Below are positions 604 to 62,340 of a stretch of 64,000 nucleotides of DNA, in pieces. The notes beneath the pieces were generated by a model. The model did not search any database. It worked only from the letters and a program-made list of their open reading frames with translations, and was not told the origin of the DNA. Source of the DNA: Chiridota heheva (lineage: Eukaryota; Echinodermata; Holothuroidea; Apodida; Chiridotidae); assembly GCA_020152595.1 (NCBI GenBank), contig JAIGNY010003850.1, forward strand, positions 213,501-277,500. The letters run 5' to 3'. Position 1 is the first letter of the stretch. Every line of letters starts with the position of its first letter. A program made the translations under genes and the position numbers.

Positions 604-1706
604 TTAATCCTTAAACGCCTGCTGAGTTCAAAACCTGACTGCAATTTTTGGGAACATTTTATTCAGGCTTAATTTACGACAAATTTCCTTGTTTTTTGTC
701 ATTACAAGTTTCTTTTATTTGAATGCTAAGACAGTGAACTTGATAATAAAAGAGTCAAATGATGAAAATATCGACATAAATATGTTAATTTTGCAATTTT
801 TGGCAAAAATATCGCATTTGTTCAACTGTTTTTAGCTTGCATCTTTTTCTGCTTGTGAATAATGAAAATGGAAGATTTTTAAGATGTATAAGTAGTTATT
901 GACATTCCCTTTCCATCGATACCACTCTCAATTTCTTTATCCATTGCAAAACGTAAAAATATATTTAAAAAAAGAAGAAATTACCTCCATAATTACGCAC
1001 TAAAAAACAAAATCCTATAGCTCAACACAGCATAAAACCCGTGACCTTCCGCACGACACACGTTCGTGCTGAGATGTGTAACAGACTGAAATCAGTGTGT
1101 TTGTTTATATTCTTATGATTTCGAGCATGATTACAACATTAAGATCAGATAAGATAGTAGCGTAATACGTATCATTCAAAAGATCGCGGAGCTACCATTC
1201 TAAGGATGTTTTTGGCAAAGGGCAGTTGTATTCAGTTCTGGAGCTACAATTTTTTGGAAAAAATTGGTCTAAAAATGCTGAAAATCATGGAATTTTCTAG
1301 TACTTTCGCCACAAAAAGAGATTGATGATCGATTGTGAAATAGCTATTCTAGTTCTATCAATAAAAATAACATTTTTGATGAGGGTTATATTAAGAATTT
1401 TTGAGTAAGTTGCCTTAAAAATTATTAAAAACAAAAATGTTGAAGAAAACAAATCATCAAAAATCTGTTTTTTCTCTTTCAAACACTTACTAATTATACT
1501 TCAGGACCTTCCCTTTGCCCCAAAACATGTGTACCAGTAGTGAACACTGCAACGAGTGCAAATCCAGTCACATTTTGACAGTACCAAATTATACCATGAT
1601 CAGTGAGTGCTGTTGGTCTACTGTATGGTAAGGTCCGGATTTTATTGTTTGAAAATAGCACTTTTAAATTAACAATGATAATGTCGATTCGGCGTTTAAG
1701 GGTTAA
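604..1706. mobile_element. divergent family A TTAA-bounded inverted-repeat element
   Basis: Starts TTAATCCTTAAACGCC and ends GGCGTTTAAGGGTTAA, an imperfect terminal inverted repeat including TTAA at both ends. The interior echoes the family A copies at 6637, 16643 and 43592 (phrases such as TTACAAGTTT, ATGCTAAGA and AAAATATCG), but is strongly diverged. No transposase ORF is visible, so it is non-autonomous. Superfamily is uncertain; TTAA targets fit piggyBac- or Kolobok-like elements. Confidence 0.55.
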
Positions 1707-2066
1707 GCCAATCCGATGATTTATAATAAGTTGTGCCACCAATTTGATAATCAAAATTTATGATAATTCTGTATGAGTGGCCCACACCAACTTTCACTTC
1801 AAACATTTACAAATGCACTTTTGTAAACGACCATCAGATTATCAATAGAACAGCTGACCTTTCCATTGCATTGTTACCATGGTTTCTACTTTCTGACAAA
1901 AATCATTTGTCAAATTGTCACTGAATTGATGAAATATCTCAAAGGTTTTCAGGTGACCTAAATCTTCTAAAAGTACACCTCAATACATCTTTTTATCAGG
2001 TACTTTTGAGTATTCTCTATTGAAAAAGCCCATACAATAGGCTCTTGAGAAGCACTTACAAAACCT

Positions 2067-2501
2067 TTAAAGAACTAATTCAGTGGTCAAGCATGTCCAT
2101 CTTATATGAAAGAGAACTTCAAAAGAAACAAAATGGTGAAGAAAGCATTCAAAAATCATATTCCGTTAAGATTTTTAAGTTTGAGATAAAGATTTTCAAA
2201 TGCTTTCTTCACCAATTTGTTTCTTTTAAAGTTCTCTTTCATATAAGATGGACATGCTTGACCACTGAACTAATCCTTTAATATCTCCATAAGGGGATAA
2301 GATTTTGCACTGCTTTCTTCACCAATTTGTTTCCTTTGAAGTCCTCTTTCATATAAGATGGGCTTGCTTGACCACCGAACTAATCCTTTAATATCTGTAT
2401 AAGGAAATAAGATTTTGCAATGCTTTCTTCACCATTTTGTTTCCTTTGAAGTCCTCTTTCATATAAGATGGCCATGCCTCACCACTGAACTAGTGCTTTA
2501 A
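2067..2501. mobile_element. family B fold-back element with extra right arms in tandem
   Basis: The first 215 bases (2067-2281) form a near-palindrome: the left arm reads TTAAAGAACTAATTCAGTGG and the right arm returns to CCACTGAACTAATCCTTTAA. Two further copies of the right arm follow at 2282-2391 and 2392-2501, each about 110 bases. The consensus end is TTAAAGGATTAGTTCAG, seen in five places in the window. No coding capacity; the 78-residue ORF across it is an artefact of the inverted repeat. Confidence 0.75.
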
Positions 2502-3625
2502 AGATATAAAAAGGGCATTGCATTGCATACAATAACCACGGCATGTAGACTTTAGTGACATGTGTTAGGTCATTATTGCATGAAAAGTGCTTACCAATAG
2601 AAGATTTTGTGATCACACTTTCAGAAATAATTGTTTAGGAAATAAATTGAAGAAAAATTTAACTTCAAGCAAAAATTTATTAAAAGTTTAAATTCAAAAC
2701 TTAAATCAATCCAGATTCTAGAAACAATTTGAAGCAAGCCTTATTGTTTTCTGCTTTCTTCTCTTTAACTCATAGTAAGTTTTTTGAAGAATCTAAAATT
2801 TGTGTCTCGGGAACCCTACATATGTAATCAGTTTTCCAACAATAGTAATCGTAACTTTAACCTTGAATTAAGTAACCTAGTAATCATAATTTTTGTACTC
2901 AATTAGGTAAATTGGTATTAATAATCTTTTCCATAAATCAAATTAACTAATAATCAGAATATCTTTCCTACAGTACAACAAGTTAAAAGTAGTAATAATA
3001 ACTTTTAACCAGATTTTGTAATTAGTAATCATAACTTTCTCCTACATTCAGTAAAAGGATTATGATCTGCTATGACCCTTTATGTGCAAGACAATCCTAA
3101 CAGTACAATATGTTCCAACAATACATGAAAAAGACACTTTTAATAAATAAGACCAAAAAAACTACTTAATTCTGCAGAATTTGATAAAAAATAACTTTAA
3201 ATTCATTATGTTCTTTTTTATGAGGATTATACAGTTCCTTTATAAAGAGGCAAGACTGAAACTAAAACAATGAGAAAATTGTATGGCAAGTCATCAAACT
3301 AACATTTAAGTTTTGGCACATTTTCTTGTACTTCTGTATACCCCTTTAATAAGCTAAGCACATTCTACTAAGTGTCAAAGCACTTGCAAATGCTATATAT
3401 AGCTATGTACACTCCAACACGAACAATGTGTTTATTTTTGACTGCTTATTAAATGTAAATGCCAATTTATATGCAAATCAACATGTCACCTGTTGCATAA
3501 TAGCAAGATTAAATTAAAGAACAAATCCCTTAGAAGAGTCATAGCCAATAAAGACATTTAGAGGTGAACAGACTATAACAAAATTATATTATGGTTACAC
3601 GTCAAATTTAAGAAATATCTCTTAT
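2502..3625. other. AT-rich sequence, nothing supported
   Basis: No ORF, splice-bounded exon or repeat unit that I can support. About 2820-3060 is rich in TAATC/GTAATAAT words, possibly very old repeat material. Confidence 0.4.
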
Positions 3626-3870
3626 TGGGCCCCTGACACGACCTGACCCCCATCCGACCTAACCCCCAGCCAACCTCAACCTGACCCCCACCCAACCTGA
3701 CCCCCACCCGACCTAACCCCACCTGACCCCCACCCAACCATAACTGACCCCCATCCCCTAACCCCAGCCAACCTGTCCCCACCCAACCTGACCCCCACCC
3801 GACCTAACCCCACCTGACCTGAACTCCACCCAATCATAACTGACCCCCCGCCCTACCTGACCCCCCTTCC
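3626..3870. repeat. C-rich imperfect minisatellite (CCTGACCCCCACCCGA-like)
   Basis: Successive units of about 17-18 bases such as CCTGACCCCCACCCAA and CCTAACCCC run through this stretch, in strong contrast to the AT-rich surroundings. The complementary strand is G-rich with runs of 3-5 G, giving G-quadruplex potential. The minus-strand Gly-rich 69-residue ORF is a by-product of composition. Confidence 0.8.
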
Positions 3871-4554
3871 AGGATTTGCTGTATTCCTTCAAAGAATTGT
3901 CAAACAATTACAACAAAGGATTTACATAAGAAAACTTAAAAAGTTGTCCTGTAATACATCAAAAAATCCTGTAACATTTTCTGAATGTTTAAAAATTCAA
4001 AGGCTTATAAGTTATTTTTACTCATTTAAAACTTTTAATTAAAATTCTTTGCTAATTATAGGGAATTTTGATTTCAAAACAATCTAGTTAATTCTCCTTC
4101 TACAGTACATGTCCATAAACCCGTATGTAAAAATTACACTATGAACTAAAATGTAAATAATGTGAAACAATGTCAACACCTTTTACATCAATATGATCAA
4201 TGTATCACCCCATGCATAAGCATATATAACGCCACCATGATGGAATGTATCCCAATAAGCCTTTATTTACAATTCCCGAGGGAAATATATATATTTTTTT
4301 TCCCCTCATTCTTTCCATACATTTCTAGGTTAAGACAACGTTATAAGCATCTGCTTCTTAACTAGAGATCAATCAATCTATGATGCCATATCCATGATGA
4401 AGCACATACTGAGCTCATGTTTTTTATGAAAGATTTGTTATAAAGAGAAAGTACACTAACACATTTCTTCCCTTTAAATCAATGATTAATATAGTTTTTC
4501 ACATTTATTGTTTCCGAGAATTGTACAAAAATAATCAACCTCTCTGGGTTTGAT

Positions 4555-5030
4555 AATTTACAGCTTTTTTAACCAATCACCGCATAAAATTGCTTAGCAA
4601 CAAAATCTGCGTAACTAAGTGGGGCAAACATCCTATGCGGTACTGGTACAGTACAGCTAGCTAGCGGCACACACCCTTGTAGTCGATTCGATTTACTGTA
4701 CCAAACAAATTTCTGCACACACAAGACGGCAAAATGGTGAACAAAAATTGCGCTTACGGGCCCACTGCCGGCTTTGTAAATCTGATTGCTGTTACCCAGA
4801 ACAGTTAGCAAACTGAATTTTGTTTATTCCATTTGCTAAAAACTCTAAAAGGTCCGAAAAAGTGCCATAACTGGACCAAAGCTTGCGGCAAGCCTGGCGA
4901 ACATCTAAATGTCAATGCAATAGTCGTACACGATTGCAGATTTGAGGTTTCTTTTCCCCCTCCTAGTTATCGCATTGATATGGTGGGTGTGGCTTATTAC
5001 ATAATTAAGAGCCGCTAAATGTGAAGAAAC
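4555..5030 (-). repeat. family F interspersed repeat, hAT-free paralogue of 54050-55560
   Basis: Read on the minus strand, it matches the sequence flanking the hAT-like element at 54401. Shared landmarks include GCTAGCTGTACTGTACCAG, TTTGCCCCACTTAGT, GATTTTGTTGCTA and ACATTTAGATGTTCG. It therefore serves as an empty-site paralogue for that insertion. No conserved coding frame. Confidence 0.65.
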
Positions 5031-8051: not shown

Positions 8052-8421
8052 CAGACCCCTAGCTTTGCTGTTTTACAGGGGCTGCCCATCCTGCCCCTAC
8101 GTGGGCCGGCCCTGCCCCTACATGGGCCTGCCCTTCCCCATGGGGTCCACTCTGCCCCCTGGGGTCCTCCCTGCCCCCTAGGGTCCGCCCTGCCCCTCAT
8201 GAGAAGAAAAAAAACGTTACATATATTTGTTTTCAAACTTAATAATCTTAATTAACCTTATAAATGAATACAGAACACAGAATGATAGCATAGTAAGCAA
8301 TTGTCGTGTTTGTAAAGGCCCCTGAAATCCATGCCGGAAAGCACAGCGCTTCGCATGTGCATTAATATGCCCCTCAACAAATTTAGCACCCTGCCTCTAT
8401 TTAAATCAAGCTAGGGGTCTG
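8052..8421 (+). mobile_element. family C element, 370 bp, TSD AGTAT
   Basis: Termini CAGACCCCTAGCTTTG and CAAGCTAGGGGTCTG are inverted repeats. AGTAT flanks both sides (8047-8051 and 8422-8426). The paralogous D element near 30866 carries the uninterrupted site (GCAAGTATGATGC), which confirms insertion and a 5-bp duplication. The interior has GC-rich CCTGCCCC/GGGTCC words in an AT-rich host. No ORF of transposase type; non-autonomous. Confidence 0.85.
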
Positions 8422-13990: not shown

Positions 13991-14079
13991 ACGGTAAATA
14001 CCATCATCCTTCGCATGCCCATGCAAGTTGACGCCCATATCATATGACCCGGCCAATTATAAAAATGGCATCTCACACT

Positions 14080-14450
14080 GAGTCCCACATGGCATCGCAC
14101 CCCATGTCCCACATGGCATTTCAGCATATCTCCCACATGGCATCCCACCCCTTGTCCCACAGGGCATCCAATCCTTTGTCTCATGTGGCATTCCATCATA
14201 TGTCCCACAGGGCATCCCATCCTATGACCCACATGGCATTTCACCCGATGTCCCACCCCATGTCCCAAATGACATCCCACCTCATGACCCACACGACATC
14301 CCATTCCTTGTCCCACATGGCATTCCACCATATCTCCCACATGTCATTCCACCAGTGTCTCACATGGCATTCCACCAAATGTCCCACATGGCGTTCCACC
14401 ATGTCCCACATGGCATCCCACGCTATGACACACATGGATACTATCCTACA
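14080..14450. repeat. 24-bp minisatellite, CCCACATGGCATYCCA units
   Basis: About 15 imperfect units built on TGTCCCACATGGCATYCCAC (24 bases, eight codons). Because the period is divisible by three, stop-free frames exist on both strands, giving His/Met/Ser-rich plus-strand and Gly/His/Cys/Val-rich minus-strand translations. I regard these as artefacts of periodicity, not proteins. The array resumes at 14545-14715. Confidence 0.85.
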
Positions 14451-15010
14451 TGTCACAGTCCCTGATTGAGCATACTATGTATGAAAGTTTCAGTTCATAT
14501 AATAACTTATATGCAAATGACTTGTTGAAATGGAGTGGAACCCCATGTCCCACATTCCACCCCATATAATGCTATGTCCCACATGACATTACATCCCATG
14601 GCATTCTACCGTATGTCCTGCATGGCATTCCACCGTATATCCTACATGGCATTCCACCCTGTTCCAAATGGCATCCCACCCCATGTCCCACATGGCATCC
14701 CACCCTATGCCCCACAAGCTCCATAAGAAGTCCCATCCTAGCTATCACAGTCCCTGATTAAGCATATTATGTATGAAAGTGTCAGTTCATATAATAACTT
14801 ATATGCAAATGAGTTGTTGAATAAGAAAAAAAGGTGGAGTCAAATAATTATGCCTGATATAGCCCTTGGTGTATACCACATGGTATATAATATATCATAT
14901 GTCCTTCATGGCCCCCATCCATGTCCCACATGGCATCCCTCCCTATGTCCATATGCAATAACATCCTGTCACACTCCCTGACTAAGCATACTAAATCAAA
15001 AAAGTCTGGT
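14451..15010. repeat. satellite remainder with a larger repeated block
   Basis: The segment CAGTCCCTGATTGAGCATA, TATGTATGAAAGT, CAGTTCATATAATAACTTAT and ATGCAAATGA occurs at 14457-14520 and again at 14750-14815, with a decayed third at 14965-15045. Each is preceded by CCCACATGGCAT units. The 24-bp array therefore sits inside a higher-order unit of about 290 bases. Confidence 0.7.
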
Positions 15011-18124: not shown

Positions 18125-18144
18125 CTACTACTAATAATAATAAC

Positions 18145-18180
<36 letters not shown>
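18125..18180. repeat. (TAA)n microsatellite
   Basis: Near-perfect AATAAT tract of about 50 bases. It lies downstream of the minus-strand LINE beginning at 18470 and may be its 3' tail, though about 250 unassigned bases intervene. Confidence 0.85.
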
Positions 18181-18181
<1 letters not shown>

Positions 18182-18469
18182 CTTATCAATTTGACTTTAA
18201 AATTGTGAACAAAATTTGAGCTAACTACCCACTCAGTCAAACCATTTCACTCATTTACTGTTTGCGATAAGCTAAAACACTGAATATCGATCCATGAGAA
18301 CTCTGGTCAACTTCAAAATGTTCCCACGTGTCACATGATAATTACCTAAAACATGCAAGAAATAACAGGAAGTCAAAGCATCACTACCAGATAGGAATTT
18401 AAAAACCTAAATCATATCGCCACGTAGTAACCAAGAATTCACAACTTAGGTTTTAAGAGAGATTCCTTA

Positions 18470-18968
18470 CCTCGGGAATAAGTCTAGTGGTTCTTCACTG
18501 AACCTGCTCCAAAATGAACTTATCCTTCTCAATAAAAGAGACTCCAAGCCTGAATAGCATACTCAAGGTGAGGTCTGACTAATTGCTTATACAAATTAAG
18601 CACAACCTCTCTACCAAGAAAACAAAAATTTCTTCTAATCAAATCAAGCATCCTATTAGCAATAACCAATAACAACAAGTCTTTGTGACCTGTCAACTAA
18701 GAATTTATCTAACTGGCATGCTTTCCCTCCATACCAAGCACTCTTGTTTTTATCATGAGCCTGCCTAATGGGACCTTATCAAAAGCTTTTTGGAAATCTA
18801 AATAGATAACATCCACATTATGACCAGAATCAACCAAGTATAGTAACATCATCAAGAAACTCCAATAAATTAAAAACACAAGACATCTTAGGTAAGCCCC
18901 CATGCTTGACCAGTAAATAATCTAGAACAACATCCCTAACAAAAGACTCCATGACCTTGCACATAACA
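18470..18968 (-). pseudogene. CR1-like LINE, RT palm and C-terminal part (catalytic YADD deleted)
   Basis: Minus-strand translation gives classical RT blocks: KHGGLPKMSCVFNLLEFLDD (decayed HGF-x-GRSC block), VDVIYLDFQKAFDKVP (first palm aspartate block), then FLVDRSQRLVV. It then jumps directly to ANRMLDLIRRNF and LYKQLVRPHLEYAIQAW, the thumb/C-terminal blocks. The intervening segment, which should contain GVPQGSVLGP and the F/YADD aspartates, is missing. Stops and one or more frameshifts interrupt the frame. It is the 3' part of the LINE running from about 25.3 kb down to here and cannot encode active RT. Confidence 0.85.
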
Positions 18969-19537
18969 CTAGTTAGACTTACTGGTCTACTTGGACTTAC
19001 TGGTCTAGTTGGACTTACTGGTCTACTTAGACTTACTGGTCTACTTAGACTTATTGGTCTAGTTAGACTTACTGGTCCACTTAAGACTTACTGGTCTACT
19101 TAGACTTACTGGTCTAGTTAGACTTACTGGTCCACTTAGACTTACTGGTCTACTTAGATTTACTGGTCTGGTTAGACTCACTGGTCTACTTAGACTTACT
19201 GGTCTAGTTAGACTTACTGGTCTAGTTAGACTCACTGGTCTAGTTAGACTCACTGGTCTAGTTAGACTTACTGGTCCATTTAGACTTAACAGTCTTGTAA
19301 GACTTACTGGTCTGGTTAGACTTACTGGTCTGATTAGACTTACTGGTCTAGTTAGACTTACTGGTCTATTTAGATTTACTGGTCTACTTAGACTTACTGG
19401 TCTACTTAGACTTACTGGTCTACTTAGACTTACTGGTCTAGTTAGACTTACTGGTCTAGTTAGACTTACTGGTCTAGATAGACTTACTGGTCTAGATAGA
19501 CTTACTGGTCTAGTTAGACTTACTGGTCTATATTTAC
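18969..19537 (-). repeat. 18-bp coding minisatellite derived from the LINE RT motif RPVSLT
   Basis: About 31 units of AGACCAGTAAGTCTAACT (minus strand), each encoding RPVSLT. The array is entered in frame from the RT text VTPIFKKGDHSF..KY and left in frame into SVMCKVMESFVRD, so the amplified piece is the conserved YRPVSLTS block of the RT fingers. Variant units give RPVSLS and GPVSLT. A single 19-bp unit near 19080 shifts the frame. The longest open stretch, 64 residues, is just this peptide. Confidence 0.93.
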
Positions 19538-19769
19538 AGGGAAAGCTGTGGTCACCCTTTTTAAAAATAGGAGTGACATTTGCAATTCTCCAATCACTAG
19601 GAACAACACCAACATGGAAGCAATTTGAAAAGATAATACTCAGGGGAACAGAAAGAATATCAGATCACTCACTTAAGACAGCAGGATGTATACCATCTGG
19701 ACTGGGTGCTTTATTTAAATTCAAACCCTTTAACTTCTTAAATACAACATCAACTAAAAAATCAACATC
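19538..19769 (-). pseudogene. CR1-like LINE, RT finger segment (second tandem copy, 5' part)
   Basis: Minus strand encodes NVDFLVDVVFKKLKGLNLNK, then APSPDGIHPAVLSE, a stop/frameshift, decayed text to VGVVPSDWRIANVTP, then IFKKGD and KYRPVSLT. These are RT motifs 0 and 1 of CR1/jockey-type LINEs. The segment is a second copy of 22638-22985 and is separated from its own upstream part by the element 19776-22580. Confidence 0.85.
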
Positions 19770-20779
19770 CTTAATTATGGGCGGCCGTTTGGGCAAAAAA
19801 AGAACAGTAAGAAACATAAATATAAGAATGAAAATAAAAAAAAATGAAACCAATAAAAAAAAAAAAGGTATGTTATAAGAAAAATATAAAATTGCATTTG
19901 AAATAAATGAAAGGAATTCAATACAAAAGAAATTAAGAACAGTTATTAATAAAAACAAACTAAAAATGAAAAAAAAAAGGTTACCCAAAAATACAAATTG
20001 AATATGCAAATAAAAATAAATAAATACAAAAGATAATAAGAAATATATATAGTAAAAATGAAACAAATAAAAAAGAAATGAAAAATTTAAGTATATAGTA
20101 ACAAGAAAACGACAAATTAGATATGAAATAAATGAAAAGAAAACAAAATTCAAGTAATATACAAACAGAAAATATATCTCCAAATATAACTACTGATATA
20201 TAAACATTAATGTATCTAATAAAAATGCTTCTATGAGCAGTTTATCTTTAAATTTGTCTTAAAATTTGTATCTTTAAATCAATATATTTTTAAATCAATG
20301 TATCTTTAAATCAATTTATCTATAAACAGAAATGTAAGTATAGTCTCAGCCTTTTATATATACAAACAGATTTATAAGCACAGAAAAATATATATATGTA
20401 CAAATAAATATATATGACAAAAAAATATATACGTACAAACAAACAAAAATGTAAAAAAGGATATATATGCGCAGCACTTTGCGCACCACAATGCAATGTA
20501 ACATGTGTTGCGTACACTTGCAATCTGTTACCGATTATACTTGGCAGCAGTTTCACTGCGCACCACAGATAAAATATATGCATATTGGTTTCGTTAACGT
20601 ACGACTCGAACACTTACATCAGGCCACATCAGGCAGTAGGTACGGTAGGTACAGCTGTCTGAGCCACAGTATCGAAGCATGGAGGTACCTCCATGATCGA
20701 AGGATACTGGTACTGTTAGCACTCCCATTTATTGCTTCTGACAAAAGTTGTTGCCTTTCTAATTAGGCCTACAGCCTCT

Positions 20780-21845
20780 ACAAATATCGGGTTGGAATTT
20801 TGTTTCCGTATCCTTTTTTTCCACATGAGGTTCTTAAATACCCAGACCAAGCGTGTCACGCTCAATTGGGACATACTTTTTGTCAAATAGGCCCACAGCA
20901 GTGATCTTGGTGTCAATTAAAAGAGCTTGAATAGTTCTTTCAAAAAATATAACTTTTTGATGGAGGTTGTGTTGAAAAATTTTGCAAAAAAATTGGAATG
21001 AAAAAGAGAGAATTAAAAAAATGCACAAAATTTAAGGAAAAAACTTTTCTTCTTAAAAAGCTTACTTGCCATACTTCTAGACCTAGCTTTTGCTTAAAAA
21101 GCCGTAAACAAGTGTCAAAGACATCAAAATATCCAATTCCGGTCGAATTTTGACTGCCCCTACCATCAATATCTTTTTTGGCTTGTGCCAAATTTGATTA
21201 TTTTTAGCCTTTTTGAGATCAAAATTTTGAAAAAGCCCGTAAGTTCTGATCGCAATACACCTACCGTACGCAAAATGTATCGTAAGAAAGGCCAAACCAT
21301 GTACTTTTAATTGATATCAACAAGAGCAAGTACCCCCTCTCTTATCACATTTAAGTTATTATCAAGCATTTTTGTTTCTAGCTAGACACTTTAGTCTAGT
21401 GGCAAATCTCAGCGCACAGCACGCGATGGCCCCAGGTGGCTTTCTTTTTTCCGCTAGTAATTACAGCGGTGATTATTTTTGTGTGTTTATTTTCATTGTT
21501 TTTGTATGTTTTGCTTTGAGAAAAAAATTAGACTGGTATCAATGGAAAGGAAATCTCACAAACAATCTAAATATGTAAAAAAAATCCTCATTTTTATTAT
21601 TCACAAAAAAAATACAAGCTTAAAAAAACTGGCCTAATTTGGCCTAAAATGTGCAAATTTGCATATTTTTGTCGATATTTTCTTTAAATGGACATTTTCA
21701 TTTAAAAGTTTTTTGTCTTAAAATTCATAGAAACTAAACTTGTAGTGGTAGAAAATGAACAGAAAGTTGTTAAAATATATTTTGAAAACAAAATTCCGAT
21801 AATTTTTTTCTTCCGTTTTGAACCCCTGGGTCTTTAAGGGTTTAA
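20780..21845. mobile_element. degenerate family A-like sequence within the 2.8-kb element
   Basis: Phrases such as GTGTCAATTAAAAGAGCTTGAATAGTTCTTTC, TTTGCTTAAAAAGCC, ATGTGCAAATTTGCATATTT and GTCTTTAAGGGTTTAA parallel the family A interior (43690-43740, 44450-44480) and its TTAA end. It is either a nested old copy or shared internal sequence. Confidence 0.4.
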
Positions 21846-21884
21846 CTTAAGTTGGCTTCACACTGAGCATAGCATTACATTGCA

Positions 21885-21960
21885 CAAACACGAGCGCTAG
21901 TGTCAGCTTGTAGGCCCATACTTACCACGCCTGGGTGCAAATCCTGGTGAAGTGCACTGT
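21885..21960 (+). ncRNA. tRNA-like remnant
   Basis: GGGTGCAAATCCTGG at about 21930 resembles a pol III B box (GGTTCRANYCC with changes), preceded by a GTCAGCTTGTAGGCCC stretch. The structure is poor; it is offered only because similar modules recur in family A. Confidence 0.3.
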
Positions 21961-22586
21961 GGCGCGCAAAGTGCTGGCATATTTCTCTTTTTACATATTC
22001 AGGTTTTTTTTCTCTTTATAATTTGTTTTTTATTCATATATATTTTGTTGTACTTATACACTTGTTTCTTAATAAACAAATAAAAGGCTGTCTGCACTTA
22101 TATTTCTGTTTAAAGATGTATCACTGTTTTATAGATCTAGTAATGTTTATATATTTAGAGGAAATAAAATTTATTTGGGATACATTATATGTTTGTATAG
22201 TATTTTTAAATTCTTTGTTATTGTAGTGGAACATTGTGTGTTATTAGATCTTATCAATTTTTAATTGTAGTTGTGTTTCTTTTCTATTTATTATTTGTTG
22301 CTTTTGCTTTTTCTTCATTGTTCTCTAAAATTCCATATGATATATTTCATATTATTTATTTTCTATTGTATTGCTTTCTTTTTTATTTCATTTTTAATTT
22401 ATACGTTTCTGCTTATTTCTTTTTCTTTTTAATTTACTTTGTATTGAACTATTTGTATTTATTTTCTATTTAAAGGTTTTTTATTAAATTTATTAGATTC
22501 TTTTTTTTTTTTTTCATTTTTAATTCATGTTTCTTAGTATTTTTCTATCTTTTTAATTTTTGCCCAAACGGCTGCCCATACTTAAT

Positions 22587-22985
22587 GGATATTGAAGAGT
22601 GCACACTAAGATAATCTACAACATCATCAGCAGGGGACTCAGTAAACAATCTAGAACAACATCCTTAACAATGGACTCCATGACCTTGCACACAACACTA
22701 GTTAGACTTACTGGTCTAGTTAGACTTACTGGTCTATAAAAGTGACATATGCAATTCTCCATTCACTAGGAATAACACCAACATGAGAGCAATTTGAAAA
22801 GATAATACTTAGGGGAACAAAGAACATTCGAACACTCAGTCAAACCATCTGGACTGGGTGCTTTACTTTAATTCAAACCCTTCAACTTCCTAGACACAAC
22901 ATCAACTGAAAAATCAACATTTTTAATGGATACTGGAGAGTGCACACTAAGAAAAACCACAACATCATCAGCAGGAGACTCCTTC
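22587..22985 (-). pseudogene. CR1-like LINE, RT finger segment (first tandem copy, two RPVSLT units)
   Basis: The minus strand runs from the junction phrase GAGTCTCCTGCTGATGATG through NVDFSVDVVSRKLKGLN and KAPSPDG to YRPVSLTRPVSLTSVVCKVM, ending KDVVLDCLL. It then re-enters the same phrase (GAGTCCCCTGCTGATGATG) to start the second copy. This copy has exactly two 18-bp RPVSLT units and lacks the PIFKKGD stretch. It is a direct tandem duplication of about 350-390 bp of RT coding sequence. Confidence 0.88.
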
Positions 22986-23585
22986 AAAAAAACAGACACA
23001 CAGTAGTCATTCAAAACCTCGGCCATATCCTTACCACAGTAAGACCATCATTACCCTGAAGGGAACCAACAACCTTGTTTTTTTGCTTTGAGCGAACATA
23101 AGAATGAAATGATTTAGGATTAAACCTCATTGGACAAACACTTTTCAAAAAGCACTAGTATCTCTTATTAAACCCTTTGTGAACTTTTCATGATCCTTAT
23201 ACCTAGCAAGCTCCACAAAACACCACTGTGTTTATAGCAACGCCACAACTTTTTTTCTCTTTTTCTGAAGCCTGCAAAACCTCCTGAGACATCCACACTG
23301 GCCGATTTCACCTACAGATTTTCTTTAATGTGACAAACCGACTTACACCCTCCAAAACTTTTAATTTGGGAAACCATCCCATGCTTTAGAAGGATCTAAG
23401 TCACAGAGTAAAGAAGTCCAATCGAACAACAAATCATCCTGAAGTGCATCTTTAAGTCTGAAACCACTTCATTAGCTGCAGAAGCCTTTGTGAAACAATA
23501 CAAATCAAAACTAATGCAGTCATCTACATTAAGCTCACACCATAGGCAATTAAAAAAAAAAAACGGAGCAGTCTTATCTATACAA
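22986..23585 (-). pseudogene. CR1-like LINE, endonuclease-RT linker, decayed
   Basis: Lies between recognisable endonuclease and RT sequence on the same strand. Only fragments translate sensibly; multiple frame breaks. Assignment is by position. Confidence 0.6.
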
Positions 23586-23876
23586 TTAAAAGTCTTTCAC
23601 AAACAATAAAACACCACCTCCTCTACCATCGAGAGTATCTAATCTGTCTTGTCTGAAGACTGAGTACCCTGGAATATGTATCTCTAAATCACTAATTTCA
23701 CTATAAATCCACCTCTCAGTAATACAAATTATATCAGGTCTAGTAATTGAAAATTCAGCCAGCAGCTCATTACGCTTATTAACAATGCTATGAACATTTA
23801 AAAACATAAGCTTAACTCTACCACTAGAAAAATTATTTCTATCCCCAGAAACATGCCTGACAGAGGGTTTCCCCAC
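23586..23876 (-). pseudogene. APE-type endonuclease N-terminal part of the CR1-like LINE
   Basis: A 96-residue frame contains LMFLNVHSIVNKRNELLAEF, the opening block of APE-type LINE endonucleases (N-x-x-S/H-I-x-N-K), then RPDIICITERWI (LxETW-type block with E of the active site as TERW) and a YSVFRQDRL...GRGGGVLLFVKD block. These correspond to the N-terminal third of the domain. The catalytic Asp/His C-terminal half is not intact. In an active LINE this enzyme nicks target DNA to prime reverse transcription. It sits between the ORF1-like part (24035-24600) and RT, in the correct order. Confidence 0.9.
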
Positions 23877-23999
23877 TCACTCCCCCTTGACTACTTTAAA
23901 GGATTCAGATCCTTAATCGCAATATTGACACCTCTAGCAAGAACACAGCACCTTGCTTAGTTAAATGCAAACCATTTCCCATGAACCAATCTACCCGAG

Positions 24000-24600
24000 A
24001 TTCAAACTAAAGCCAGAAATTTACAAAACTGAACTCAAACCAAACAACAAATACTCTCTAGCCCACTATTGATCAACATCATCTTATCTATCATTAAGGA
24101 ACTGCCTGTACACGGCAACAGACCAACAACTAGAACCCTACAACCCTTGTCCTTTAACTTGAATAACAAATCCATGAAACTACGCCTAACAGCATCAACA
24201 TTTCTCCTTGAAATATTATTTGTACCAATTGAAACTATGACGGTATCTTCACCCTTACATAAAGTCTGAACACAAGAAGTAACGTCATCAACCCTAGCCC
24301 CTGGAAGACACACCCTAATCCTTCTACTATGATCTACTCCACAAAACTCTTGTGTAACATACCTAATAAGTGAGTCCCCTATCTACAACACCTTATCCCT
24401 AATAGAATTCACTGCAGGCAATGTATCAGATGAATCAATCCTACATGAGGCCTGTCAACAGAATCTGATCCAAGACAATCTACCCGAACAGAAACCCTAT
24501 CAACTTCCTCACCCAAGGAACTATCACCCAAAGGAACTATCAACATCACACGTCTTGACTACCTACATCTAAACCACTAACTCAGTATGCACACTAGCTT
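24000..24600 (-). pseudogene. CR1-like LINE ORF1 esterase (SGNH-like) segment
   Basis: The 92-residue frame at 24035-24313 reads CLPGARVDDVTSCVQTLCKG, then IVSIGTNNISRRNVDAVRRS and RVLVVGLLPCTGSSLMIDK. PGA-x-V-D-D followed by IGTN is typical of the SGNH/GDSL-like esterase domain found in ORF1 proteins of CR1 LINEs. The GTN block (Asn of SGNH) is present; the nucleophile Ser block would lie upstream around 24330-24400 (GDSL-like text is partly visible as IGDSLIR-type sequence), with a stop in between. Not a functional protein. Confidence 0.8.
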
Positions 24601-24673
24601 AAACCTTCTCAACGATACAACTACAACCAGAAACTCTTTAATTTCAAATCCTTCAACCTTATACACTTTAAAC

Positions 24674-29216: not shown

Positions 29217-29515
29217 TGGCCATGGTCTTGCTGGTACACTAACTAGCCATGGTCTTGCTGGTACACTAACTAGCCATGGTCTTTCTGGTACACTAACCAT
29301 GGTCTTGCTGGTACACTAACTAGCCATGGTCTTGCTGGTACACTAACTAGCCATGGTCTTGCTGGTACACTAACTAGCCATGGTCTTGCTGGTACACTAA
29401 CTAGCCATGGTCTTTCTGGTACACTAACTAACCATGGTCTTGCTGGTACACTAACTAGCCATGGTCTTGCAGGTACACTAACTAGCCACGGTCTTGCTGG
29501 TACACTAACTAGCCC
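29217..29515. repeat. 27-bp minisatellite
   Basis: About 11 units of AGCCATGGTCTTGCTGGTAC plus ACTAACT, nearly identical, with one shortened unit near 29290. The period is nine codons, giving a spurious 83-residue minus-strand frame of VSVPARPWL repeats. Confidence 0.93.
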
Positions 29516-33397: not shown

Positions 33398-34605
33398 TAG
33401 GCTTGGGCGATATTGAACATAATGCAATATCGATATATCGCCTGAAAAATATCGATAATATCGAAATGCAAATTATAGGACGTCATACGTAAGCTGTATG
33501 TACTGTTCTGGGCAAGGTAATCTCGTCTCGGCTCAAAAAATGTCAAGTAAAACTTTTTGTACAAATTAACAGAAATCACTGCAAAATATATACATATGAT
33601 CTTTAAATAAACACCCATTATGTTTAAAAATGTTCTTTACATGGTTTCTATCTCAAAAGATCAATCACAGAAACTTTGAAAAAGTTTAGGTCTTGGCATA
33701 TTCTTAAAAAAAAAAAAATGTTGTGGAACTGGTATTCAGGCCTACACTGTATGCCTTACAAAAATCGGCTCCAATTCTTCTTAAAATTTTATAACTCACT
33801 TACTTCTTATGAAAGTTGTACTAAAGAGGCATTATTTTGGTAGCATTATATGGACTTCTAGAAATTCAGAAGTCCATATATGATGCATATTATTGAATTT
33901 CTAGTCTGCTTCTATCATCGCACGAGTGTTGTCACTAAGGAGAAACAGTGGTAGATAGTATGTGTGTACATAGTAAAGTACTGTACAGTAGTGATACTGT
34001 GTGTGTATGTAGTTACTGCACTGTACATTATCTGATCGATCTGGCAAGACCAGTTTGTCACTTTTACTTTAGACTTTCTGAACAAACAAAATAGTGTGAA
34101 AAAACCTCATAATTTTGTCAGTAATTTGTCAATTAATGACTGTTTGATTTAAAAATTCAGATTCAGTATTCCTTTTGAGGAAACTTAACACGATGTTTGA
34201 GGATTCAACATCTTATGATTTTTGTTGTCTGAACATCGTAAGCCATCAAGTATAAAGTTGGAGTATTGCGCAATGCCTCTGTACTCCGCGAGTCAAGTGG
34301 TTTTTTGTTCATGGAAGGATTTTTGGGTAATTGTTATCACAATATTAATGTTTTAATAAAGTTTTCTCATAACTGACTGCCTGGAACTTTGATATAAATA
34401 AAATTTATTAACTTTTTGTGGCTGCTTAATAAAAAATACTTGGATGTTTGATAGTCATGTTTAGTTTTGTAATAGTTCATGTATTGTGTATTATTGAAGA
34501 AACATAATATCGATATGTCGATACGACCCTTGAACTCAATATCGGCCATATCGATATAGGTCAATATCGAAATATATCGAAATAGCGATCTATCGCCCAA
34601 GCCTA
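33398..34605. mobile_element. hAT-like element, 1208 bp, TSD GAAGGGGG
   Basis: TAGGCTTGGGCGATAT begins it and ATCGCCCAAGCCTA ends it (inverted). The 8-bp duplication GAAGGGGG is at 33390-33397 and 34606-34613. Subterminal zones are filled with ATCGATAT words. The interior is non-coding and includes a hairpin (TATATGGACTTCT...AGAAGTCCATATA) near 33850. Same family as 49177-50389 in reverse. 8-bp TSD and end type fit the hAT superfamily. Confidence 0.92.
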
Positions 34606-41575: not shown

Positions 41576-42258
41576 TTCTAGTCAGCTTCAATCATCGCAT
41601 GAGTGTTGTCACTCAGAAGAAACAATGGTAGCAGTATAGTAAAGTACTGTACAGTAATACTGTGTGTATGTAGTTACTGCACTGTACATTATCTGATCGA
41701 TCTGGCAAGACCAGTCTGTCACTTTTACTTTAGGCTTTCTGAACAAACAATATAGTGAGAAAAACCTCATAGTTTTGTCAGTAATTTGCAAATAATGACT
41801 GTTTGATATAAATTCAGATTCAGTATTCCTTTTGAAGAAACTTAACACGATGTTTGATGATTCAACATCTTATGATTTTTGTTGTCTGAACATTGTAAGC
41901 CATTAAGTATAAATTGAATTCTTGCATACTGCCTCTGTACTCCGCGAGTCAAGTGGTGTTTTGTTCATGGAAGGATTTTTGGGTAATTGTTATCACAATA
42001 TTAATGTTTTAATAAGTTTTATTAAAACTGACTGCCTGAAACTTTTGATATAAATGAAATTTATTAACTTTTTGTGGCTGTTTAATAAAAAATACTAGGA
42101 TGTTTGATAGTCATGTTTAGCTTTTTAATAGTCCATGTATTGTGTATTATTGAAAAAACATAATATAGATATATCGATACAACCCTTAAACTCAATATCG
42201 GCCATATCGATATAGGCCAATATCGAAATAAACTGAAATATCGATATATCGCCCAAGT
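41575..42258. mobile_element. hAT-like element remnant (one end only), TAGGCTTGGGCG family
   Basis: Collinear with 33910-34605: GTCAGCTTCAATCATCGCAT, ACTGCACTGTACATTATCTG, GGCAAGACCAGTCTGTCACT, TCAATATCGGCCATATCGAT, ending ATATCGCCCAAG. The left TIR and about half the interior are missing. It directly abuts the RTE-like pseudogene. Confidence 0.8.
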
Positions 42259-49176: not shown

Positions 49177-50389
49177 TAGGCTTGGGCGATATATCGATAT
49201 CAATATTTCGATATATTTTGATATTGACCAATATCGATATGGCCGATATTGAGTTCAAGGGTCATATCAATATATCGATATTATGTTTTTTCAATAATAC
49301 ACAATACATGAACTATTAAAAAGCTAAACATGACTATCAAACATCCAAGTATTTTTTTATTAAACAGCCACAAAAAGTTAATAAATTTCATTTATATCAA
49401 AGTTTCAGGCAGTCAGTTATGATCAAACTTATTAAAACATTAATATTGTGATAACAATTACCCTAAAATCCTTCCATGAACAAGGAACACTTGGCTCGAG
49501 GAGTACAGAGGCATTGCGCAATACTTCAACTTTATACTTGATGGCTCACGATGTTCAGACAACAAAAATCATAAGATGTTGAATCCTCAAACATCATGTT
49601 AAGTTTCCTCAAAAGGAACACTGAATTTGAAGTTCTATATCACACATTCATTAATTGACAAATTACTGACAAAACTATGAGGTTTTTCTCACTATTTTGT
49701 TGGTTCAGGAAGTCTAAAGTAAAAGTGACAGACTGGTCTTGCCAGATCAATCAGATAATGTACAGTGCAGTAACTACATACACCTCACTGTACAGTACTT
49801 TGCTATGTACACACATACCATCTAGGCTACCACTGTTTCTTCTGAGTGACAACACTCGTGCGATGATTGAAGCAGACTATAAATTGGATAATATGCATTA
49901 TATATGGACTTCTGAATGTCTAGAAGTCCATATAATGCTACCAAAATAATGCCTTTTCAGTACAACTTTCATAAGAAATAAGTGAGTTATAAAATTTTAA
50001 GAAGAATTGGAGCCGATTTTTGTAAGGCATACAGTGTAGGCCTAATACCAGTTCCACAACATTTTTTTTTTTTTTAAGAATATGCCGAGGTCTAAACTTT
50101 TTCAATGTTTTTGTGATCGATATTTTGAGATAGAAACCATGTAAAGAACATTTTTAAACATAATGGGTGTTTATTTGAAGACAATGTATATATTTTGCAG
50201 TGATTTCTGTTAATTTGTACAAAAAGTTTTACTGGACTTTTTTTGAGCCGAGACGAGATAACCTTGCCCAGAATAGTACATACGACTTACGTATGACGCC
50301 CTACAATTTGCATATCGATATTTCGATATTATCGATATTTTTCAGGCGATATATCGATATTGCATAATGTTCAATATCGCCCAAGCCTA
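49177..50389. mobile_element. hAT-like element, 1213 bp, TSD GTCTCCAA
   Basis: TAGGCTTGGGCGATAT at left and ATATCGCCCAAGCCTA at right. The 8-bp duplication GTCTCCAA is at 49169-49176 and 50390-50397. Reverse-oriented sister of 33398-34605, with the same internal hairpin (ATATGGACTTCT near 49903). No transposase ORF; the 90-residue frame at 49677 is not conserved in the sister copy. Confidence 0.93.
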
Positions 50390-51042: not shown

Positions 51043-51568
51043 CAGAAAAGCTTTGTGTTCTACAGGGGCAGCCAGACCCCTTAGTGACATGTCCACTGTC
51101 TTTACTGGGGCCCCTACCCCTGGGGTCCCCTCCATGGGCCCACCCCTGGGGTCCATGTCCCTGGGTCTGCCCCTGGGGTCCACCCTACCCCCTGGGGGTC
51201 CACCCTACCCCCTGGGGGTCCACCATGCCCCCTGGGGTCCGCCCTGCCCCTCATGAAAATTTTTATTCAGATATATAATTTTATAACTAAATAATCTTAA
51301 TTTACCTCATAAATGAATACCTTACATGGATACAGAACACAGAATGATAGCATAGTAAGCAATTGTCCTCTTGGGCTCATGAATGGTCCTTATCAATCAG
51401 AATAGTATCATTCTGAGGTATGATTATAGCTAACATCCCAGAGCTTCTTCACCATGGGATTGAGCCTTAAGGGGGCCTCAGGACTCCATGCTGAAAAGAC
51501 GCAGCGCTTCACGCATTAATGTGCCCCCTAACAATTCTAGCAACCTGCCCTTTTTAAATCAAGCTAGG
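51043..51568 (+). mobile_element. family C element with eroded left end
   Basis: AAAAGCTTTGTGTTCTACAG replaces the intact C start; the right end CAAGCTAGGGGTCTG is perfect. Inside, the GGGGTCCACCCTACCCCCTG unit is repeated several times, expanding the GC-rich segment to about 180 bases. No clear TSD. Confidence 0.75.
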
Positions 51569-60852: not shown

Positions 60853-60994
60853 GGTTGCCAACTGGAAAGTTGCCAGCCGTTATACACACAAAAAAAGGAG
60901 CAAGGTATTAGGTGGAAAACTATCATCCTGTGAGCCTTACTTTTTAAGTTTGCAAATGGAGTCATTGATCAGGGATGACATGGTTGATTTTATG
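60853..60994 (+). pseudogene. second CR1-like LINE, RT motif 1 region
   Basis: WEVANWKVASRYTHKKRSKV corresponds to the DWK-x-A-x-x-x-P-x-x-KKGSK block. After a frameshift ENYHPVSLTFLSLQMESLIR and DDMVDFMNSK follow. A single HPVSLT is present here, i.e. the unexpanded state of the RPVSLT motif. Confidence 0.85.
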
Positions 60995-61953
60995 AACAGT
61001 AAAGGATATACTTATTGTTCATCAGGATGTTCATATGAACAGTAAGGATCTATTTAGTTGTTCATCAGGATATTCATTTGAACAGTAAGGATCTAATTAG
61101 TGTTCATCAGGATGTTCATATGAACAGTAAGGATCTATTTAGTGTTCATCAGGATGTTCATATGAACAGTAAGGATCTATTAAGTGTTCATCAGGATGTT
61201 CATATGGACAGTAAGGATCTATTTAGTGTTCATCAGCATGTTCATATGAACAGTAAAGGATATATTTAGTGTTCATCAGGATGTTCATATGAACAGTAAG
61301 GATCTATTTAGTTGTTCATCAGGATATTCATTTGAACAGTAAGGATCTAATTAGTGTTCATCGGGATGTTCATATGGACAGTAAGAATCTATTTAGTGTT
61401 CATCAGCATGTTCATATGAACAATAAAGATCTATTTAGTGTTCATCAGCATGTTCATATAAACAGTAAGGATCTATTTAGTATTCATCAGGATGTTCATA
61501 TGAACAGTAAGAATCTATTTAGTGTTCATCAGGATGTTCATATGGACAGTAAGGATCTATTAAGTGTTCATCAGGATGTTCATATGAACAGTAAGGATCT
61601 ATTTAGTGTTCATCAGGATGTTCATATAAACAGTAAGGATCTATTTAGTGTTCATCAGGATGTTCATATAAACAATAAAGATCTATTTAGTGTTCATCAG
61701 GATGTTCATATGAACAGTAAGGATCTATTTAGTGTTCATCAGGATGTTCATATGGACAGTAATGATCTATTTAGTGTTCATCAGGATGTTCATATGAACA
61801 GTAAGGATCTATTTAGTGTTCATCAGGATGTTCATATGAACAGTAAGGATCTATTCAGTGTTCATCAGGATGTTCATATGGACAGTTAGGATCTATTTAG
61901 TGTTCATCAGCATGTTCATATAAACAGTAAGGATCTATTTAGTGTTCATTAGC
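60995..61953 (+). repeat. 42-bp coding minisatellite derived from LINE RT (NSKDLFSVHQDVHM units)
   Basis: About 23 units of AACAGTAAGGATCTATTTAG + TGTTCATCAGGATGTTCATATG. The 42-base period is 14 codons, and a 185-residue stop-free frame spans 61332-61889. The array begins within VDFMNSK and leaves as LFSVH-stop-HGFTSGRSC, so it lies just before the HGF-x-x-GRSC block of RT. Units vary QDV/QHV and MNS/MDS/INS. A block of six units (60995-61250) is repeated as a higher-order copy at 61250-61505, recognisable by AGTAAAGGATATA and TTTAGTTGTTCATCAGG variants. Confidence 0.94.
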
Positions 61954-62340
61954 ATGGATTTACAAGCGGGAGGTCTTGCCTCTCGAATCTGTTAGAGGTG
62001 TTACAAATCTGGACTAAGATGCTTGACAAAGGTTCAAGTGTGGATAAAATATACTTGGATTACCAAAAAATCATTGATACTGTACTATTTGAAGATTAAT
62101 GTCCAACGTTAGAGGCTTTGGAATAAGAGGCTCCACATCGGAATCGCTAGAGGATTTATTATCTGATAGGGAAATGAGAGTAGGAGTCCTTGAAGCCTTT
62201 TCTCATCTGGTCAAGCTTTCAAGAGGTGTAGCAGTGATTGGTCCTTTTTTTTTTATACTTAATGCAAACCTCCGGGTTATATCGGGAATACTATCAAATG
62301 TTGTAAACCTACGGGATATCAGGAAAATTATACATTTTGG
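61954..62340 (+). pseudogene. second CR1-like LINE, RT palm region
   Basis: HGFTSGRSCLSNLLEVLQIW, TKMLDKGSSV, then DKIYLDYQKIIDTV (first palm aspartate block, with KAFD changed to KIID). After a shift GFGIRGSTSESLEDLLSDRE, MRVGVLEAFSH and VIGPFFFILNANLRVISGIL follow. The F/YADD block expected after SGIL is replaced by NVVNLRDI, i.e. lost by frameshift and substitutions. Inactive. Confidence 0.85.

Follow-up and report, generated by a model that had tools for sequence, protein, structure and literature searches.

A short conserved block of reverse transcriptase (RT) text, RPVSLT, stands 31 times in tandem on the minus strand, within a LINE in the genome of Chiridota heheva, and the locus raises the question of how a minisatellite could arise from six codons of a transposable element (TE). 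We addressed it in a window of 64,000 nucleotides, the whole stretch of DNA that was analysed, together with genome-wide searches. We conclude that the minisatellite very probably arose inside a resident, decaying LINE copy, in which the block became a dimer, the dimer was duplicated along with its surroundings, and one of the two halves grew to 31 units. The features on which this account is built are collected in Table 1.

Table 1. Features of the RPVSLT locus, in positions of the window
Feature	Position	Strand	Basis
Single LINE copy, interrupted and internally duplicated	18180..24673	-	Match to the relative L079, from 4989 (3′ side, at 18180) to 1360 (at 24673)
RT text on the exit side of the array, RPVSLT then SVMCKVMESFVRDVVLDYLL...	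18880..18970	-	Translation
Duplication, first half, holding the array; resumes at 22581-22640 past the inserted element	18912..19775	-	L079 match
Array of AGACCAGTAAGTCTAACT (RPVSLT) variants, 31 units	18971..19529	-	Tandem Repeats Finder and unit splitting
RT text on the entry side of the array, GVVPSDWRIANVTPIFKKGDHSFPCKY then RPVSLT	19530..19609	-	Translation
Inverted-repeat element, 2.8 kb, with ends TATGGGCRGCCGTTTGGGC, within the first half of the duplication	19776..22580	.	Window self-comparison
Duplication junction; AGTAAA at 22641-22646	22640..22646	.	AGTAAA at both corresponding L079 edges
Duplication, second half; outer end approximate, net 37 bp lost beside the unit pair	22641..22990	-	L079 match
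Two-unit copy RPVSLTRPVSLT, each unit identical to the commonest unit of the array	22700..22735	-	Window comparison and dimer pattern

Structure of the array

Tandem Repeats Finder reported a period of 18 bp, 31.2 copies and 90% matches at 18969-19530, and when we split the minus strand into units, running from 19529 down to 18971, we obtained 31 units, all of 18 bp except one of 19 bp (19097-19079). In unit size and number (18 bp x 31) the array falls within the definition of a minisatellite, a tandem repeat with a unit of about 10-100 bp. With up to three mismatches allowed, the unit was matched 30 times in the window, 29 times in the array and once at 22706, whereas 100 shuffles averaged 0.05 matches, so that the RPVSLT minisatellite described in an earlier, sequence-only reading of this DNA is confirmed and lies far above chance. 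That reading had also named the 19-bp unit, but it overlooked the consequence of this unit for the frame, to which we return below.

The units differ pairwise by 10.5% on average. Unit order gives at most a weak sign of local spreading, which counts against growth by slippage, where neighbours should be more alike than distant units: likeness between units was not correlated with their distance along the array (r -0.02, p 0.64; raw r -0.10, p 0.90), and in a lag test only lags 1 and 3, among the 10 lags compared, were nominally low (p 0.037 and 0.039).

The host LINE and its internal duplication

As a reference for the window copy we used a LINE relative on contig C1751 (L079). Its positions 1360-4989 map once onto 24673-18180, except for 3431-3816, which are covered twice, and its positions 2542-2871 and 4087-4483 are absent from the window, the second gap removing a stretch of the RT. 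The unit text is that of the LINE block and the LINE is found on both flanks, which upholds the proposal, made in the sequence-only reading, that the RPVSLT block of the RT seeded the array. By Pfam matches of its fragments to Exo_endo_phos (1.3e-12), Exo_endo_phos_2 (3.3e-12) and RVT_1 (8.8e-11), L079 combines an APE-type endonuclease and an RT in one element. The fragment bearing RPVSLT matched RVT_1 at only E 0.0086, below the Pfam cut-off, and when it was compared by sequence with a structure database its best RT match (E 0.31) and that to LINE-1 ORF2p (0.47) were not significant; no Pfam match was obtained for the ORF1-like fragment of L079. The window LINE is a putative member of the CR1/jockey group (CR1-type). 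The window copy itself is a dead, decaying resident. Just past its 3′ match lie 15 TAA triplets (18132-18176), which may be the tail of the element.

The two-unit copy of the block at 22.7 kb had escaped the earlier reading. A second LINE insertion was considered as its source and rejected on the single coverage of L079 outside the ~380-bp stretch. Since L079 is covered once save for 3431-3816, the window holds one LINE insertion, tandemly duplicated within, and the 31-unit array and the two-unit copy lie within 3.2 kb of one another in that insertion. The duplicated stretch is about 380 bp long, the distance from AGTAAA to AGTAAA in L079 being 379 bp. On either side of the array the two halves differ at 5/58 and 23/191 aligned bases. 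When we compared them with 44 relatives, we found that they have 10 of 302 sites in common at which both depart from the family majority; pairs among the relatives average 0.84 such sites and reach 9 at most. Private sites number 16 in the first half and 33 in the second, the latter figure being inflated by poor alignment at its deletion. Three of the 10 common sites occur in none of the 44 relatives; the other seven recur in 2 to 8 of them, which indicates that part of the sharing predates the LINE insertion. A pattern containing two of the common changes gave eight genome matches at up to one mismatch, and both changes occur together only in the two halves, the remaining six matches having one change each.

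The first half is interrupted by an inverted-repeat element bordered by CTTAAT at 19770-19775 and 22581-22586. The inner parts of this element also match each other in inverted order.

The RPVSLT block across the genome

A 24-base pattern for the majority form of the block, searched with up to three mismatches, was found at 1,861 places in the 1.1-Gb genome, while the reversed control gave 0. We compared 48 LINE loci, 47 of which were measurable: 40 of the 47 show the exact spacing of a single unit and seven have small indels, the largest of which (+21 bp, at L073) is adjacent to the unit without forming a second one. A second 18-bp unit was thus absent from all 47 other measured LINE copies. 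Dimers of the window unit (up to three mismatches in 30 bases) gave 28 matches, and all 28 are at this locus, 27 in the array and one in the two-unit copy; the control gave 0, and no such dimer was found away from the locus genome-wide at this threshold, with pattern searches of this kind overlooking strongly diverged copies. The unit and both of its flanks are continuous with the LINE and the other measured copies are single-unit, as is expected of a minisatellite derived from a TE. The case that the sequence-only reading had set against itself, the same 18-bp satellite elsewhere without RT flanks, was looked for with the dimer, a degenerate dimer and the array as query and was not found; within the sensitivity of these searches, there is no independent satellite of the array unit elsewhere.

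Other duplications of the block occur in two family copies. On C2066 (L086:209-266) there are two copies over 28 bp that are 100% alike, and on C154 (L087:69-252) two copies over 92 bp that are 97% alike; neither length is a multiple of three, hence both are out of frame. There are at least two such cases, a tally that is a lower bound because it comes from one gapped exact pattern and from the first 100 listed of the 1,861 places. We consider it unlikely that the block is a duplication-prone spot of the LINE family that has repeatedly seeded minisatellites, with the two-unit and 31-unit pair forming a dated before-and-after.

Proposed origin of the minisatellite

On the coding strand, the family-majority block reads TAG-GCCAGTGAGTCTTAC-TAG (44 relatives). 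DNA synthesis may have slipped between these TAG triplets, which lie 18 bp apart, and so doubled the RPVSLT block. The TAG/TAG pair is the only direct repeat bordering the ancestral single block and, being of 3 bp, could be there by chance; it is nonetheless a plausible slip site for a dimer of exactly 18 bp. The stretch of about 380 bp including the dimer was tandemly duplicated in the LINE, as its structure with AGTAAA at both edges attests, and we would place this event second in order. Further slippage or unequal exchange would then have enlarged one half to 31 units, the other retaining just its pair. Growth in one half is the simplest account; the data are equally compatible with contraction of a longer array to two units in the second half, and with gene conversion between the two. 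At a later or earlier time, the inverted-repeat element would have split the expanded half. Of the mechanism that had been suggested from the sequence, the duplication of a short internal stretch is supported, as the best mechanism we have for the locus, with slippage or unequal exchange as its probable means. Hairpin-driven instability seems an unlikely explanation, the dimer folding as DNA at only -2.3 kcal/mol. Because the block also survives as a two-unit copy 3 kb away, the proposed origin of the minisatellite is easily followed at this locus.

Alternative explanations

RT text enters and leaves the array in frame on the minus strand, as the sequence-only reading had seen, and each side is open as far as the 19-bp unit. 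Such an entry and exit would suit a selected protein repeat, that is, an RT whose repeated RPVSLT is held in frame for its function, but we give this explanation next to no probability. The 19-bp unit shifts the frame, so that the frame taken from the entry hits stops beyond this unit and never reaches the exit; the exit frame contains a stop, and part of the RT is missing. Moreover, when the 30 units of 18 bp are set against the commonest one, their differences are distributed 7:18:9 over codon positions 1:2:3, and third positions are not favoured. A duplication of 18 bp amounts to six codons, so that by arithmetic alone it keeps the frame of a coding region. For these reasons, to which the 28- and 92-bp duplications elsewhere may be added, the in-frame state does not bear the weight that the earlier reading had placed on it. 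The reading frame of the array is incidental and had no role in its origin; we take the array to be neutral DNA, no function being indicated, and it serves as a warning against inferring function from "in-frame" repeats in a dead ORF.

Without any seeding by the RT, the array could be explained by an older 18-bp satellite that either received the LINE as a later insertion or itself landed in the LINE. Used as a DNA query, the array did give seven more matches at five other places (C3480, C124, C213, C3326 and C1377; 64-73% identity), and two overlapping matches of the degenerate dimer pattern marked an 18-bp array on C693. However, the arrays at the five places have other units, of 17, 18 and 21 bp (TACTGGTCCATTTTGTAC, TGATCGGATTTACTGGTA, ACTCATAAGCTAAATAG, GTAGACCAGGAATCTAGACCA, TTTGCTGGTCTTGAATGTGAC), and no L079 match, and that on C693 has a different 18-mer, TAGGCCTAACTGGCCTAT, without LINE flanks, its own flanks giving one locus match of 44 bp (E 0.007). 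The reversed control of the degenerate pattern itself gave 12 matches, so finds such as that on C693 are background. The array unit consists of LINE sequence and stands where that sequence belongs in the LINE, and on inspection of the similar arrays on six contigs, with other units and no LINE match, we rejected the satellite-first origin, which retains only a very slight chance. The array or the dimer could also have been carried by a LINE source copy and spread by retrotransposition. This would agree with the presence of at least two units at two places in the window, and with the fact that each of the three substitutions by which the window unit departs from the majority recurs in 2 to 4 of the 44 relatives. 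Yet both places belong to a single LINE copy, one in each half of its internal duplication, and the genome has no other dimer at up to three mismatches, so that a source copy, including one whose dimer has since been lost or is unassembled, appears improbable as a whole. It is very improbable that the array is an artefact of assembly, whether collapsed, inflated or miscounted: the genome searches brought up no second haplotype for this locus, which would suit an artefact, but the units differ among themselves, a 19-bp unit stands among them, and the two-unit copy has its own place and has diverged. An assembly error is unlikely to have produced the entire array, although the unit count may be wrong. 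Origin within the resident LINE is the explanation we retain.

Comparison with known systems

The array is ordinary in kind, TE-derived minisatellites being well known and common. In the human survey of Ahmed and Liang (2012), as given in PMC3389668, at least 7,276, or 23%, of minisatellites and satellites are TE-derived, within a scope limited to human sequences with units of >20 bp, at least 40% GC and 95% identity. The window array resembles those loci in that tandem units were taken from a TE copy and locally expanded, and differs from that survey set, as described there, in its 18-bp unit, its likeness of about 90%, its RT-coding block and its 1.1-Gb genome. It also recalls the model of minisatellite birth of Haber and Louis (1998) and Taylor and Breden (2000), as cited in PMC6947457 and PMC3389668, in which slippage occurs between short flanking repeats: here too a block between two short direct repeats was apparently duplicated and then expanded. 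According to PMC6947457 these repeats measure 5-10 bp around the motif and growth follows by slippage, conversion or unequal exchange, whereas the TAG repeats of the window block measure 3 bp. Satellites bearing CR1 or LINE-1 ORF2 text are described in PMC9659126 (chicken HinfI and Phodopus PROsat) and share with our array the tandem arrangement of ORF2-coding LINE text; unlike these satellite families, the array is confined to one locus and is a minisatellite with an 18-bp block as its unit. The CR1 fragment in the account of PMC8392823 has no tandem arrangement and is not relevant to the array.

The step from one to two units in the birth of a minisatellite is seldom preserved. In this case three stages can be compared side by side, a single unit in other copies of the LINE family, and two units and 31 units at the locus itself; the interest of the array, which is modest, lies in the preserved two-unit stage.

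Other repeats in the window

Several other repeats were recorded in the window. Arrays of 24 bp resembling CATCCCACCCTATGTCCCACATGG occur at 14065-14716; the same unit recurs, as its reverse complement, on L081:1-289 and also in the terminal part of L087, where it adjoins a broken-off copy of the window LINE family, and from these occurrences it is probably carried in a dispersed element. Two separate GC-rich arrays based on CCCTGGGGTCCAC lie at 8090-8196 and 51116-51250, and a 27-bp unit is repeated 11.1 times, 93% alike, at 29219-29514. Three copies of a dispersed repeat (33950-34604, 41636-42257 and 49178-49824) are 88-94% alike to L002:2327-2956. At 60991-61956, a 42-bp unit is repeated 22.9 times, 92% alike, with a stop-free run of 198 residues in one forward frame.
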